Both the position numbers and the translations under genes were made by a program. 64,000 bases of DNA, from NCBI RefSeq assembly GCF_000374165.1, contig NZ_KB893719.1:55278-119277 (forward strand), in the 5' to 3' direction. How positions within the stretch are numbered: position 1 is the stretch's first letter; each line of letters opens with the position of its first letter. Positions 43,977-63,760 of the stretch are shown in pieces. Source of the stretch: Parafrankia elaeagni (GTDB lineage: Bacteria > Actinomycetota > Actinomycetes > Frankiales > Frankiaceae). The notes under the pieces are model-generated. The model was not told the origin of the DNA. It did not search any database and worked only from the letters and a program-made list of their open reading frames with translations.

Positions 43977-44894
43977 GTGCCCGACGGCGAAGCCCCCGAT
44001 CCAGCCACGCCGGGAGCACCTCCCGCTGTCCGCATCAGCGAGCGCTGGGGCCCACCTGGCGCAGGTGGGGCGCGCACCGCCCGTCGGGCGCTCGGAATCC
44101 GGGCGCTCGGAATCCGGGCCGGGCGGGCGGTGCTGCCACCCCTGGGCGTGTTCGCGGTGGTGACCGGCGTCTGGTACGCGGTCAGCTACTGGTTCCTCGC
44201 CCCCCGGCGCCGGTTCCTGCTCCCACCACCGCACGAGATCGTGGCCGAGGGCTTCCTGGACAGCCGCACCGCCGACGAGATCCTCACGGCGCTGGCGGGG
44301 ACGGCCAAGGTCGCCCTGGTCGGGCTCGCGATCGCCGCGGCCATCGGCATCGCCGCGGCGATCCTGATGGCGCAGGCACGCTGGATCGAGAACTCCTTCT
44401 ACCCGTGGGCCATCCTCCTGCAGACCATCCCGGTGCTGGCGATCGTCCCGCTCATCGGTTTCTGGCTTGGCTACGGCTTCTGGTCCCGCACCGTGGTCTG
44501 TGTCGTGATCTCGATGTTTCCCATGATCACGAACACCCTGTTCGGCATCCAGTCCGTGGACGCCGGCCACCACGACCTGTTCACGCTGCGCCGGGTCGGC
44601 CGATGGCGCCGGCTGGTGCACCTGGAGCTGCCCAGCGCCCTGCCCGCGGTCTTCGCCGGCCTGCGCATCTCGGCCGGGCTCGCGGTCATCGGCGCGATCG
44701 TCGGCGACTTCTTCTTCCGCCGTGGGGATGTGGGCATCGGCGCCCTCATCGACAACTACACCCGCGACCTGTCGTCCGCGCCGCTGTTCGCCGCCATCAT
44801 CTCCTCGGCTCTGTTCGGGCTGGTGGTCTTCTGGCTGTTCGGTCTCGCCGCACGGCTGGTCGTCGGTTCCTGGCACGACTCCGCACGCGGCTGA
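43977..44894 (+). CDS. ABC transporter permease, SsuC/TauC-like
   Basis: A 305-aa membrane protein with about six helices. The EAA loop reads LFTLRRVGRWRRLVHLELPSALPAVFAGLRIS (typical of the sulfonate/nitrate/taurine and pyrimidine-precursor permeases), and LLQTIPVLAIVPLIGFWLGYG precedes it. GTG 43977 begins about 90 residues ahead of the core; a 15-bp direct repeat near 44086-44116 doubles the ALGIR segment. The last 139 bp overlap the 3' end of the anthranilate synthase gene on the other strand. The partner is the divergent NMT1-type binding protein; no ATPase is in the window. Confidence 0.9.
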   Translation: MPDGEAPDPATPGAPPAVRISERWGPPGAGGARTARRALGIRALGIRAGRAVLPPLGVFAVVTGVWYAVSYWFLAPRRRFLLPPPHEIVAEGFLDSRTADEILTALAGTAKVALVGLAIAAAIGIAAAILMAQARWIENSFYPWAILLQTIPVLAIVPLIGFWLGYGFWSRTVVCVVISMFPMITNTLFGIQSVDAGHHDLFTLRRVGRWRRLVHLELPSALPAVFAGLRISAGLAVIGAIVGDFFFRRGDVGIGALIDNYTRDLSSAPLFAAIISSALFGLVVFWLFGLAARLVVGSWHDSARG

Positions 44895-46867
44895 ACCGGC
44901 CGCGGCGCCGTAACCGGCACCAACGCCGACAGCACCTCGCGGAGCAGCTCGAAGCCGTTCTCGCTGAGCACCGACTCGGGGTGGAACTGGAGACCGGCGA
45001 AGGTCGGCCCGCGCAGCGCGTGCACCGCGCGGACCCTGGGACCGCCCGGCTGCGGCGCCGGATCGTCGGCGACGTCCAGGCAGACCTCGACGGTGCCGAA
45101 CGGCGTGCTGAGCTCGCGCTGTGCGGAGACGGCGGTGAACGTCGAGTAGAACCCGACCCGGCGCGGGCGGCCGAAGAAGTCGATCTCCCGGGCCAGTCCC
45201 TGGGAGGTCTCCTCGCGCCGGTGCAGGCCCAGCCCGAGGAGATCGGCGAGCAGCTGGTGCCCGAGACAGACCGCCAGCAGGGGCCGCCGCCGGCTCAGCG
45301 CCCCGGCCATGAGCGACCGCAGGGCCGTCATCCGCGGATCGTCGCGCACGGTCGGGTCGCCGGGGCCCGGGCCGGCGACCAGCAGGTCGAACCCGGCGGT
45401 GTCCCGGGCGTCTCCCGCATCCCGCCAGTCCCGCACCGTCACCGCGAGGCCGAGGCCGCGCAACTGGTGGGCGAGCATGCCGCTGAAGGCGTCCTCGCCG
45501 TCCACTACCAGTGCGGATCTGCCGCCGAGTGGGGCAGGCGCGGGCACGCCGGCCTGCCTGTCCAGCAGCCAGAACCGGGCCAGCCGCCCGGTGCGCGCGG
45601 CGAGCGCGGCCACCACCAGCGGATCGTCTCCGAACGTGGCCGGCGGGACAGCTCCTGCCAGCTCCCCGCCGCCCGAACCACGGCTTGCCGAACCGTCCGA
45701 CGGCGGCAGCAGGCCCAGCGCCGCGAGGATCCCGGCCGCCTTGGTGTGTGTCTCCGCCGTCTCCCCCGCCGGTGTCGAGTGGCGCACCAGGGTGGCACCG
45801 ACCGACACGCGCAGCTCGCCGGCTGGGGAGATCTCCGCGGTGCGGATCAGGATCGGCGCGTCCAGCGTCTGCCCGCCGGACTCGTCGGTGCCGAACAGGG
45901 CGAGCACTCCGCTGTAGTACCGCCGCCCGCGCCGCTCGTGCCGGGCGATCACCCTGGCCGCGTTCTCCAGCGGGCTGCCCGTGACCGTCGGCGCGAACAT
46001 CGTCTCCCGCAGGACGTCCCGCACGTCGAGCCGGCCCCGCCCGACCAGCAGGTACTCGGTGTGGACGAGGCTCGACATCTCCTTCAGGTACGGGCCGAGC
46101 ACCTGGCCGCCCCGGTCGGCGACCCGGGCCATCATCTTCAGCTCCTCGTCGAGCACCATGTGCAGCTCGTCGATCTCCTTGCGGTCGGCCAGGAAGGCGA
46201 GCAGCGCCTCGCGGTCCGGGCCGGTGGGCGGCAGCCGGTGGGTGCCCGAGATCGGGTTCATCATGACCAGCCCGCCCTCGACGCTGACGTGGCGTTCGGG
46301 GGTCGCCCCGACCAGCAGCCGGGTGCCCGTGTGGACGACGAACGTCCAGTAGGTGCCTCGCTCGCCGGTGAGCAGCCGGCGCAGCACCGCGAGGGCCGCG
46401 GTGACCGGTGGGCCGGCGATCGAGGCGGTGTAGGTGCGGTGGATGACGAAGTTCGACCCCTCACCCCGCCCGATCTCGTCGCGCAGCACCGCCTCCACCG
46501 TGCGCGCGTACTGCTCGTCACCCGGGTCGAAGGCGCCGCCCGCGCAGACGACGTCCTGGTCGGGAAGGGCCCGCAGCGCGGCGGACAGGCCGACCCGTTC
46601 CCAGGCGTCGACGCGCAGGCACTCCAGCGGGGTGCCGTCGTCGACACAGGTGAAGCCACGTTCGGCGAGCTGCCGGTAGGGGACGAGCGCCAGCACGCGG
46701 GGTCCGGCGGGCCCCGGCGGCAGGTCGATGTCGGCGATCCGGCCAGCGGTCTCGACCGTCCCGACGAGCACGTCGAGGTGGTCGGCCCCGTCCCGCCGGA
46801 TCAGCGCGAACGGGCCGGGATCGGTTCCCGCGGCGAGGGCCGCGAGCAGGTCGGGCAGCAGATTCAT
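44756..46867 (-). CDS. trpEG: Anthranilate synthase, fused TrpE-TrpG type, under trp attenuation
   Basis: A 703-aa fusion that converts chorismate and glutamine to anthranilate. Residues 1 to about 440 are the chorismate-binding domain (VMMNPISGTHRLPPTG, LDEELKMMARVADRGG, RETMFAPTVTGSPLENAARV), and 465 to 650 a class I glutamine amidotransferase with Cys534 in AVCLGHQLL and His629/Glu631 in LQFHPESVLS. The fused form resembles actinobacterial TrpE and PhzE-like enzymes; a tryptophan attenuator upstream favours tryptophan supply over phenazines. Residues 651-703 are a tail without family similarity, coded opposite the permease 3' end, as if the original stop was lost. Confidence 0.93.
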   Translation of the reverse strand: MNLLPDLLAALAAGTDPGPFALIRRDGADHLDVLVGTVETAGRIADIDLPPGPAGPRVLALVPYRQLAERGFTCVDDGTPLECLRVDAWERVGLSAALRALPDQDVVCAGGAFDPGDEQYARTVEAVLRDEIGRGEGSNFVIHRTYTASIAGPPVTAALAVLRRLLTGERGTYWTFVVHTGTRLLVGATPERHVSVEGGLVMMNPISGTHRLPPTGPDREALLAFLADRKEIDELHMVLDEELKMMARVADRGGQVLGPYLKEMSSLVHTEYLLVGRGRLDVRDVLRETMFAPTVTGSPLENAARVIARHERRGRRYYSGVLALFGTDESGGQTLDAPILIRTAEISPAGELRVSVGATLVRHSTPAGETAETHTKAAGILAALGLLPPSDGSASRGSGGGELAGAVPPATFGDDPLVVAALAARTGRLARFWLLDRQAGVPAPAPLGGRSALVVDGEDAFSGMLAHQLRGLGLAVTVRDWRDAGDARDTAGFDLLVAGPGPGDPTVRDDPRMTALRSLMAGALSRRRPLLAVCLGHQLLADLLGLGLHRREETSQGLAREIDFFGRPRRVGFYSTFTAVSAQRELSTPFGTVEVCLDVADDPAPQPGGPRVRAVHALRGPTFAGLQFHPESVLSENGFELLREVLSALVPVTAPRPVQPRAESCQEPTTSRAARPNSQKTTSPNRAEEMMAANSGADDRSRV

Positions 46868-46917
46868 GATTGTTTCCTCGGGGCCGGGAGCCGCCGGGAC
46901 CGGACGGCCCGCCCGAG

Positions 46918-46954
46918 CCGAGGAAACGAGGACGGCCGCCGGAAGGGGCGGCCG
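46918..46954 (-). terminator. trp attenuator terminator hairpin
   Basis: On the minus strand an 8-bp perfect GC stem (46947-46954 with 46933-46940) with a 6-nt loop is followed by a pyrimidine-rich TCCTCGTTTCC run. It lies between the leader peptide stop (46965) and the trpEG start (46867). Its 5' arm can instead pair with leader bases 46983-46989, giving the antiterminator form. Confidence 0.82.
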
Positions 46955-46964
46955 CGTGATGGGG

Positions 46965-47027
46965 CTACGCGCGAAGGAGGTGGGCCGCCACCGGGGCGGG
47001 CCACCAGAAGTTCCTCAACGCGTGCAT
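46965..47027 (-). CDS. trpL: trp leader peptide (20 aa, tandem Trp)
   Basis: A 20-residue leader peptide containing RNFWWPAP, too short for usual gene finding. The tandem Trp codons at 47001-47006 are complementary to CCCACC (46979-46984), and bases 46983-46989 are complementary to the 5' arm of the terminator. This is the layout of trp attenuation: when charged tRNA-Trp is scarce the ribosome stalls at the Trp codons, frees the antiterminator and lets RNA polymerase read into trpEG. Streptomyces trpE leaders have similar WWWPA cores. No Shine-Dalgarno precedes the ATG, and a TACAGT box ends 6 nt before it, so the mRNA is probably leaderless. Confidence 0.88.
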   Translation of the reverse strand: MHALRNFWWPAPVAAHLLRA

Positions 47028-47033
47028 GCGGTC

Positions 47034-47039
47034 ACTGTA
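47034..47039 (-). promoter_or_regulatory. -10 box of the trpL-trpEG promoter
   Basis: TACAGT (minus strand) ends 6 nt before the ATG of the leader peptide, so transcription would start on or next to the ATG. The same hexamer forms the -10 of the promoter at 32794-32823. No consensus -35 lies 17-18 nt upstream, as is frequent in actinobacteria. Confidence 0.6.
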
Positions 47040-47110: not shown

Positions 47111-47156
47111 AGAAAGAGCTCCGGGCCAGCCCACCATGGTGGGCTGGCCCGGAGCT
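47111..47156 (-). terminator. Perfect 40-bp palindrome, terminator of the LIV operon
   Basis: Bases 47117-47156 are a perfect 40-bp inverted repeat without a spacer (20-bp arms meeting at CCATGG). On the minus strand the hairpin is followed by CTTTCT. It lies 90 bp after the stop of the membrane protein that ends the branched-chain amino acid ABC operon and just upstream of the trp leader promoter, so it should keep LIV transcripts out of trpEG. Confidence 0.8.
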
Positions 47157-62530: not shown

Positions 62531-63760
62531 TCAAGCGGCGGCGTCGAGCGTGACGTTCTGTGGCCAGGCGGTTGCTTCGTTGTAGGCGGTCTGGGTCTTG
62601 AGGCAGCCATGGAGGATGCCCACGAGGCGGTTACCGAGCTGGCGGAGCGCGGCGTGGTGACCGGCGCCGCGGGCGCGCAGGGCGTCGTAGTAGGCGCGGG
62701 CGCCGGGTGAGGCGCCCAGGGCGCAGAAGGCCTGCTGGTGCAGGGCGTCGGCGAGCCGGTGGTTGCGGGCGTAGCGGGCCAGGGCGACCTTCTTCTTCCC
62801 GGACGCGCGGGTGATCGGGCTGGTCCCGGCGTAGTTCTTCCGCGCCTTCGCGTTGGTGTAGCGGTCGGGGTCGTCCCCGAACTCCGCGAGCACCCGGGCG
62901 GCGAGGACCGGCCCCAGGCCGGGCTGGGACCGGTAGACCTCAGCGTCCGGGTGCTGGCCAAAATGGGCATCGACCTGCTCGGCGAGCCGGTCGATCTCGG
63001 CGTTGAGCGTGCCGATCAGCGCGGCCTGGGCACGGACGACCGCCGCGTAGGCGCCGGCGATCACCGGGGACACGGGCAGCTGCCCGGCCTGGAACGCGGC
63101 CCTGATCTTCCGGGACTTCTCGGCGATGTCGCGGCGGCGGGCCCGCTTCAACGCCGCGGAGAGCTGCGCGATGGTCAGCCGCCGGGCCAGCTCCGGTGTC
63201 GGTGCCTTGGCGAGCAGTTCCAACGTGTCCGGGGCGGCCAGGTCGTCGAACACGGCCACGGCGGCCGGGAACGACTCCAGCAGCGCCGCGCGCAGCCGCT
63301 GGACCTGCCTGGTGCGGTCCCAGATGAGCGTCTGGTGGGCCCGGGCGGTGATCTTTACTGCCTCCGCGAGCTCGCTGTCGCCGGCGACGGCCCGCAGCTG
63401 GTGGCGGTCGGTGCGGACCATGTCCGCCAGTGCGTGCGCGTCCCCGGCGTCGCTCTTGGCCCCCGACGTCGAGTACCGCTCCCGGTAGCGGGCGGCCTGC
63501 AGCGGGTTCACCGCGATCACCTGGTAGCCGGCCGCGACCAGCGCGGACACCCACGGTCCGCGGTCGGTCTCGATCCCGATCACCACCTGGGCCGGGTCGG
63601 CGTCCTCGGGTAGGTGCGCACCGACCAGCTCGTGCAGCCGGGTGATCCCGGCCAGCCCCTCCGGCAGCCGCGCCTTCACCAGCCTGCGGCCCGCCTCGTC
63701 CTGCACCTCCACATCATGATGATCCTCAGCCCAGTCATCCCCGACGAACAGCACCGACAT
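62531..63760 (-). CDS. IS110-family transposase
   Basis: A 409-aa recombinase. The N-terminal RuvC-like DEDD domain shows LFVGDDWAEDHHDV (first Asp), IETDRGPW (Glu) and SDAGDAHALADMV (Asp pair). The C-terminal Tnp domain has SQPGLGPVLAARVLAEF and YAGTSPITRASGKKK, which carries the catalytic Ser. No frameshift or stop is seen, so the gene looks intact. ATG 63760 abuts GGGAGG, so GTG 63754, 6 nt further on, may be the true start. Transposases of this family work with a noncoding bridge RNA from the element's flank. Confidence 0.93.
   Translation of the reverse strand: MSVLFVGDDWAEDHHDVEVQDEAGRRLVKARLPEGLAGITRLHELVGAHLPEDADPAQVVIGIETDRGPWVSALVAAGYQVIAVNPLQAARYRERYSTSGAKSDAGDAHALADMVRTDRHQLRAVAGDSELAEAVKITARAHQTLIWDRTRQVQRLRAALLESFPAAVAVFDDLAAPDTLELLAKAPTPELARRLTIAQLSAALKRARRRDIAEKSRKIRAAFQAGQLPVSPVIAGAYAAVVRAQAALIGTLNAEIDRLAEQVDAHFGQHPDAEVYRSQPGLGPVLAARVLAEFGDDPDRYTNAKARKNYAGTSPITRASGKKKVALARYARNHRLADALHQQAFCALGASPGARAYYDALRARGAGHHAALRQLGNRLVGILHGCLKTQTAYNEATAWPQNVTLDAAA

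Follow-up and report, generated by a model that had tools for sequence, protein, structure and literature searches.

The leader region ahead of a fused chorismate-binding and glutamine amidotransferase gene in the window, by which we mean the whole 64,000-nucleotide stretch of Parafrankia elaeagni DNA analysed here, is a real, conserved and ordinary actinomycete trp attenuator, distinguished by a missing U-tract and a hairpin covering the Shine-Dalgarno sequence (SD) of the gene and not by its predicted leaderless leader. We consider it highly probable that the element works as an actinomycete-type tryptophan attenuator mediated by the ribosome, with a helix termed P0 and the SD hairpin as parts of its default fold. 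The individual elements, their conservation and the coevolution of the SD and anti-SD arms are observed directly in the sequences and in the computations performed on them. An initial annotation had already read the region as an attenuator, and this reading is well supported by the WW codons, regions 1 to 4 and the promoter-to-start spacing, which are conserved over at least six family-level groups. In contrast, its remark that a leaderless leader is unusual finds no support, and its terms 'complete' and 'fused trpEG' need the qualifications given below.

Layout, conserved stems and proposed mechanism

Reading the minus strand from 47039 to 46867, the TACAGT box is followed after 6 nt by the leader MHALRNFWWPAPVAAHLLRA, regions 1 and 2, a GC-rich hairpin and the start of the fused gene at 46867. 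The features are as follows.

47117..47156, strand not assigned: perfect 40-bp palindrome, probably a terminator separating the upstream gene
47034..47039, minus strand: TACAGT, a box of the -10 type, 6 nt ahead of the leader ATG
46965..47027, minus strand: leader ORF MHALRNFWWPAPVAAHLLRA of 20 codons, ATG at 47027-47025 and stop codon TAG at 46967-46965, predicted to be leaderless with a putative transcript start at the ATG
47012..47025, minus strand: helix P0, 5' arm, running from the start codon to codon 6, based on the minimum free energy (MFE) fold of the leaderless RNA and cross-family permutation, with a weak pair test
47001..47006, minus strand: tandem Trp codons, read as the control codons from the sequence and from the TGGTGG short ORF of the related loci
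46995..47005, minus strand: region 1, partner of region 2 in a protector or pause hairpin
46979..46989, minus strand: region 2, with GGCGGCC (46983-46989) as 5' arm of the antiterminator, paired with region 3
46964..46978, minus strand: helix P0, 3' arm, made up of the end of the leader with its stop codon, based on the MFE fold and permutation
46932..46955, minus strand: 3:4 hairpin of terminator type, without U-tract
46918..46927, minus strand: anti-SD arm GTTTCCTCGG, complementary to the SD arm at 10 of 10 positions and coevolving with it
46872..46881, minus strand: SD arm CCGAGGAAAC of the downstream gene, from complementarity, coevolution and occlusion
44756..46867, minus strand: fused chorismate-binding and glutamine amidotransferase gene (trpEG or PhzE-like), from Pfam, NCBIfam and a solved-structure match

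In its coordinates, the initial annotation was accurate. The 20-codon leader carries its tandem Trp codons at 47006-47001, CCCACC lies at 46984-46979, the antiterminator segment GGCGGCC (46989-46983) pairs with 46953-46947 at 7 of 7 positions, the terminator arms 46954-46947 and 46940-46933 form 8 perfect base-pairs (9 pairs counting one G-U), and TACAGT (47039-47034) ends 6 nt 5' of the leader ATG. The antiterminator (2:3) and the terminator (3:4) are mutually exclusive and share GGCC and GGCGG blocks, in the sequence as well as in its conservation. The attenuator was called complete, which is right for the leader and the stems, all of which are there, but not for the canonical U-tract, which is absent. 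RNA folding, proposed at that time as a check, revealed structure beyond chance: a transcript beginning at the leader ATG (47027-46850) reaches -93.9 kcal/mol (z -3.86) and RNA from 47045 to 46868 gives z -4.25, with 0/200 shuffles as good in each case. The predicted fold of the leaderless RNA comprises three domains, a 5' domain that includes the 1:2 hairpin, the 3:4 hairpin and the hairpin over the SD of the gene. The core pattern occurs once in the genome (7.59 Mb, 135 contigs), and the backwards control pattern does not occur. The leader had no match at the gathering threshold in a scan of the whole window against Rfam release 15, and the two matches obtained there at a relaxed threshold both lie far below the gathering score, with nothing credible among them. 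Elsewhere in the window, at 62846-62927 on the plus strand, the same database places the actinobacterial sRNA Ms_AS-4 (RF02464; 68.4 bits, gathering score 50).

Conservation was assessed over 172 loci, made up of the window and loci encoding relatives of the window protein; loci were counted, not independent genomes: three of them are second paralogues, and several genomes contribute two or three each. 'Streptomyces-like' and 'Micromonosporaceae-type' are labels derived from similarity and leader sequence, and f4, f17, f18, f19, f26, f33, f36 and f37 denote families. Loci L006-L009, whose leader regions are identical to those of L089, L092, L093 and L091, were dropped (L006 is Parafrankia soli NRRL B-16219, and L089 belongs to a genome of the same genus as the window), and the duplicate check found no other two loci that agree in the central 120-mer of the compared stretch. 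Loci L108-L120 were used only for this check and for leader and box counts, while the pairing tests leave out L021, for which the gene start was not found, and L105-L107, which are paralogues without the leader.

Over 50 Frankiaceae and Micromonosporaceae-type sequences, 98.9% of the cells are paired in stem 3:4, 99.1% in 2:3 and 91.0% in 1:2. These stems hardly vary and display no double changes in the same sequences, and the evidence within these two groups is therefore one of conservation and not of covariation. Across families, regions 2 and 3 do covary: own partners beat permuted partners to a degree reached by 2 of 5000 permutations in 23 loci, mainly from groups f19, f36 and f26 and with the anchor misplaced in one row (L180). 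Within the pairing set, the leader stops soon after WW in 6 Micromonosporaceae-type loci, 4/4 f19 loci and 16/16 loci of the group 'other', and region 2 together with CGCG-type blocks persists past the stop codon in the early-stop loci inspected, which argues for a constraint on the RNA and not on the peptide. The initial annotation had made its reading dependent on the WW codons and stems recurring in relatives, and there they are conserved.

Helix P0 brings the start of the leader together with its end. In the MFE structure of the leaderless RNA, 47025-47018 and 47016-47012 pair with 46978-46974, 46972-46967 and 46965-46964. The two arms change together in f19 and 'other', where their own mean was reached by 0/5000 permutations (20 loci), and likewise over 132 loci (0/2000). 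Comparison of independent pairs gave a weak result, with 25 vs 15 among 66 (p 0.077; Wilcoxon 0.025); of the four controls, that of the first 18 nt against the post-terminator arm came to 38 vs 24 (p 0.049). That P0 is part of the default fold of the element is thus supported, but not proven.

Our working model relies on inference for the point at which transcription starts and for its termination at 3:4, as it does for the response to tryptophan and for what P0 and the SD hairpin do. RNA polymerase would start at or beside the leader AUG, and the ribosome would consequently load on a bare 5' end. With charged tRNA-Trp plentiful, or without a ribosome, region 2 would be covered or paired, the 3:4 hairpin would form and expression would be ended or blocked. 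A ribosome stalled at the two Trp codons would allow pairing of region 2 with region 3 and thereby read-through into the PhzE-like fused gene of anthranilate-synthase type. By pairing the start-codon region with the leader end, P0 would give an advantage to prompt ribosome loading and would shut the 5' end afterwards. The hairpin straight after the terminator would hide the SD of the gene, probably lowering basal translation.

The hairpin over the gene's SD

The SD of the gene lies within CCGAGGAAAC (46881-46872), and this arm forms a perfect inverted repeat of 10 bp with the anti-SD arm GTTTCCTCGG (46927-46918). What the initial annotation had termed a pyrimidine run is not a U-tract and constitutes one arm of this repeat onto the SD region. 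Since base composition can by itself make a pyrimidine stretch pair with an SD, own arms were compared with arms swapped between relatives, a design that was also chosen because the register of the SD helix differs among lineages and limits column covariation. Because relatedness confounded an earlier test with permuted arms, the comparison was based on 66 independent pairs of nearest usable relatives, drawn from 132 loci with each locus used once.

Own arms were better in 43 pairs and swapped arms in 18, with 5 ties (sign p 0.0009, Wilcoxon 1.3e-5). A first version of the test gave 42 vs 19, and restriction to a 14-nt SD core 41 vs 21 (p 0.008); the signal was weaker with the narrower span of 20 nt after the stem and the SD core (39 vs 24, p 0.038). 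Divided by group, the 42 vs 19 version yielded 7 vs 1 in 'other', the sole group reaching 0.05 in the sign test, 7 vs 3 in Frankiaceae, 21 vs 11 in the Micromonosporaceae-type, 5 vs 3 in the Streptomyces-like and 2 vs 0 in f19. None of five control segment comparisons was significant (27 vs 35, 29 vs 31, 21 vs 39, 27 vs 18 and 31 vs 33), the fourth leaning in the same direction as the SD arms (p 0.12). Alignment A1, consisting of 50 of the 53 reference sequences (L094, L095 and L104 were left out), displays double changes at 9 of 10 pairs of the SD helix, a number reached by 59/500 shuffles, and 62.5% of the SD-helix cells pair in the register of the window. When terminator and SD helix are scored together, the covariation score of A1 lies above all 500 shuffles.

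Base-shuffling of the spacer, moreover, leaves the SD more accessible than it is in the native sequence of 70/75, 16/20, 16/17, 4/4 and 11/16 loci of the five groups, compared to 7/13 control loci without Trp leader (12 of f17 and 1 of f33). The control set excludes L150, whose start was not found; the control genes inspected are imperfect, sitting behind coding-like sequence, and the loci within groups are related. Equilibrium folding of 131 loci (leaving out L075) does not support the idea that the attenuator state switches SD access: for the SD, the mean unpaired probability hardly depends on whether region 2 is free or has been removed (Frankiaceae 0.32 vs 0.31, Micromonosporaceae-type 0.31 vs 0.30), and in the stalled state it gains more than 0.1 at 9/131 loci, the reverse being observed at 4. 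Because hardly any switching is seen in these models, we read the SD hairpin as a probable constitutive brake, which would lower basal translation.

The pairing might instead be non-regulatory, either as a by-product of a pyrimidine stretch that serves termination and an SD that is purine-rich, or as a tandem terminator that chances to end at the SD. Such a reading has a real, if minor, chance of being correct. Pyrimidine tract and SD do tend to pair in GC-rich DNA, permuted arms still averaging -16.7 kcal/mol; the near absence of switching at equilibrium is compatible with a structure that regulates nothing, and the authors of the S. lividans study assign two hairpins to termination in the relevant part of their account (PMC8079986). 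Against this reading, own arms beat swapped ones while the controls remain non-significant, occlusion exceeds that of shuffled spacers, and double changes are found at nine of the ten pairs of the helix in A1.

A more far-reaching version, which we rate as rather doubtful, is an attenuator of two layers, in which a single ribosome on the leaderless leader would set both read-through and access to the trpE SD, with the anti-SD arm replacing the U-tract and P0 allowing the leader to be initiated only by a ribosome that has loaded before transcription reaches the leader end. Its switching step would need to be kinetic or protein-assisted, since equilibrium folding displays hardly any. As candidate anti-anti-SD, the purine-rich leader stretch GAGGAAC was considered and dropped; by eye and uncounted, it was not seen in the other genera compared. 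We additionally observed nine perfectly complementary bases between 46906-46914 and 46994-47002, linking region 1 to the apex of the SD hairpin, which may have arisen by chance in GC-rich sequence.

Termination and the probably leaderless leader

No T run of at least four residues follows the terminator stem within 10 nt in any of 20 Frankiaceae loci, the window included, or in the 4 f19 loci, and such runs are found in 2/75 Micromonosporaceae-type, 4/17 Streptomyces-like and 2/16 other loci. Lacking a U-tract, the element is not filed here as a classical enterobacterial trp attenuator, although it very probably works like one. With T runs in 4/17 Streptomyces-like loci, the actinomycete class does not share the U-tract consistently either, while the terminators of Corynebacterium and Streptomyces are said to be followed by poly-U tracts in the section of Seliverstov et al. 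concerned with them (PMC1262725). Intrinsic termination at the 3:4 hairpin is accordingly a prediction, and the absent U-tract counts against the attenuator reading. This constitutes a gap in the standard model, and in the absence of a U-tract the conserved SD hairpin may do part of the work.

Termination that depends on Rho or another factor is an unlikely alternative. Upon supply of tryptophan, the ribosome would leave the leader, the untranslated stretch ahead of the gene would be exposed and Rho would act on it, with the 3:4 hairpin merely pausing the polymerase. Consistent with this, the U-tract is absent after the stem in most loci, and Rho is named as one possibility for mycobacterial cys leaders in a passage of Seliverstov et al. 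(PMC1262725). However, Rho alone needs neither of the almost invariant and mutually exclusive 3:4 and 2:3 stems, nor would its action require the covariation of regions 2 and 3 across families, and the corresponding passage of PMC8079986 calls termination at S. lividans trpL1 seemingly independent of Rho. Even less probable is a mainly translational output, in which the leader ribosome governs SD access and not termination. The missing U-tract and a default fold that occludes the SD would suit it, but modelled SD pairing is nearly the same with region 2 free or removed, and the few loci with a clear rise in the stalled state are accompanied by others moving in the opposite direction.

A short ORF with TGGTGG is found at 140/172 loci compared to 0.6% of 1720 shuffled upstream regions, and in combination with a TANNNT box at 140/172 loci compared to 0.06% (1/1720) of the shuffles and 0/172 on the reverse strand. 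The distance between the box and an in-frame ATG or GTG is 6 nt in 56, 7 nt in 82 and 8 nt in 2 of the 140 leaders; where a leader offers several in-frame candidates, the box was allowed at any of them, under the same rule for the shuffles. The TGGTGG leader is present in 15/20 Frankiaceae, 78/78 Micromonosporaceae-type, 20/23 Streptomyces-like (f18), 11/12 f19, 11/11 f36, 1/1 f4 and 4/10 f26 loci. The 32 of 172 loci in which it is missing include all of f17 (0/13), f33 (0/1) and the second Frankiaceae paralogues (0/3). Fused-enzyme homologues without TGGTGG leader are found at L105-L107 and L141-L153; the upstream sequences of L105-L107 look coding, so that these three may be internal operon genes, perhaps of secondary metabolism. 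In the 5/20 Frankiaceae leaders of L092, L094, L095, L103 and L104 the motif reads TGGCGG, so that a single Trp codon precedes Arg, and the box keeps its usual 6-8 nt; this offers a natural test of one versus two control codons.

With a box at 6-8 nt from an in-frame start in 140/140 TGGTGG leaders, leaders of this class appear as a rule to be leaderless, and the design, judged unusual in the initial annotation, has already been reported for S. lividans trpL1 and S. meliloti trpL. The shared spacing indicates a widespread actinomycete design and no single-genome oddity, and it strongly suggests that the leader of the window is translated from a leaderless mRNA whose putative start lies at or next to the ATG. 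Such a leader bears on the question of how ribosome and polymerase keep step without an SD-led leader. Further upstream, the palindrome at 47117-47156 has no loop (two 20-nt arms), lies downstream of a 166-aa ORF and is followed on the minus strand by CTTTCTG; judged by its sequence, it may be a terminator that isolates the trp promoter from upstream transcription. By eye, no clear -35 hexamer is seen upstream of the leader in the window, which could be taken to favour a leadered mRNA that starts farther upstream with the TANNNT box as incidental, as could the reliance of the leaderless start on sequence, but this is very improbable given the constant spacing, the possible insulation by the palindrome and the leaderless trpL1 transcript seen by RNA-seq in S. 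lividans according to the pertinent part of PMC8079986.

The downstream enzyme and known systems

The window protein carries the Pfam domains Chorismate_bind and, after it, GATase. Among solved structures, 3r74, listed as anthranilate/para-aminobenzoate synthase component I and taken by us to be PhzE, is the only distinct sequence matched below 1e-30 (E 3e-164, residues 30-647 of 661). The order of a chorismate-binding domain before an amidotransferase and the near full-length similarity to 3r74 are those of a PhzE-type protein. For the NCBIfam families of anthranilate synthase component I, its best score is 152.3 at a cut-off of 645, and none reaches the cut-off among the matches listed (25 of 45); for TIGR01815, presumably the alphaproteobacterial fused clade, it scores 135.8 at a cut-off of 739. 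Judged by sequence, the gene at 44756..46867 is a PhzE-like fused paralogue, whose product would be anthranilate or ADIC. The designation as fused trpEG was hence right in the domain layout, although what it names is PhzE-like and a second enzyme in a genome that also encodes a canonical TrpE.

Five chorismate-binding enzymes lie above the Pfam cut-off in the genome. The canonical actinobacterial TrpE is encoded on contig 64 (817.7 bits, cut-off 693), next to a gene that looks like hisI, and the 500 nt upstream of it contain neither TGGTGG nor a short ORF with two Trp codons. With the canonical trpE lacking a Trp leader, the predicted control by tryptophan attenuation sits on the fused paralogue, which suggests that the tryptophan-responsive supply has been delegated to this second enzyme. 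Two more pairs of a trpE-like and an amidotransferase gene are found in the same genome (L003 and L004), reaching no NCBIfam cut-off among the 25 matches listed for each.

The literature searched contained no published description of the SD hairpin or of P0, and a search by titles and abstracts on tryptophan attenuation in Frankia or SD sequestration at Streptomyces trpE returned nothing on the element of the window. The closest system is S. lividans trpL1-trpE, for which the sections on trpL1 in PMC8079986 describe a leaderless Trp leader MFAHSTRNWWWTAHPAAH with a Trp run, an AAH motif, two hairpins and a monocistronic trpE, transcribed leaderless as judged by RNA-seq. These sections mention a uridine-enriched stretch, in contrast to the window without a T run of four, and name neither SD pairing nor P0 (PMC8079986). 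Streptomyces-like loci carry the same type of leader as MFAHSTRNWWWTAHPAAH ahead of homologues of the window protein, and trpL1 has three Trp codons where the leader of the window has two. The S. venezuelae gene investigated by Lin, Paradkar and Vining is reportedly a fused trpEG. As cited in the parts of PMC1262725 and PMC4833913 that refer to their work (Lin, Paradkar and Vining 1998), the S. venezuelae trp attenuator, an actinobacterial one like that of the window, was studied experimentally, and the 1998 title names an anthranilate synthase gene. The trp operon of C. glutamicum presumably has its own start in front of trpL, the passage concerned leaving its leaderless status unstated (PMC11995493). 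For Sinorhizobium meliloti trpLE(G), the portion of PMC7298713 dealing with it lets the RNA begin at the ATG of trpL, writes the gene as trpE(G) and reports attenuation as the control. This organism belongs to a different phylum, and the window protein remains far below the TIGR01815 cut-off.

In B. subtilis trpE, a hairpin over the SD, switched by TRAP, provides a second control after attenuation. The hairpin of the window differs from it in that it is not known to have a switching partner and hardly switches in equilibrium folding. If the attenuator of two layers considered above were true, the ribosome would play in it the part that TRAP has at the SD hairpin of Bacillus.
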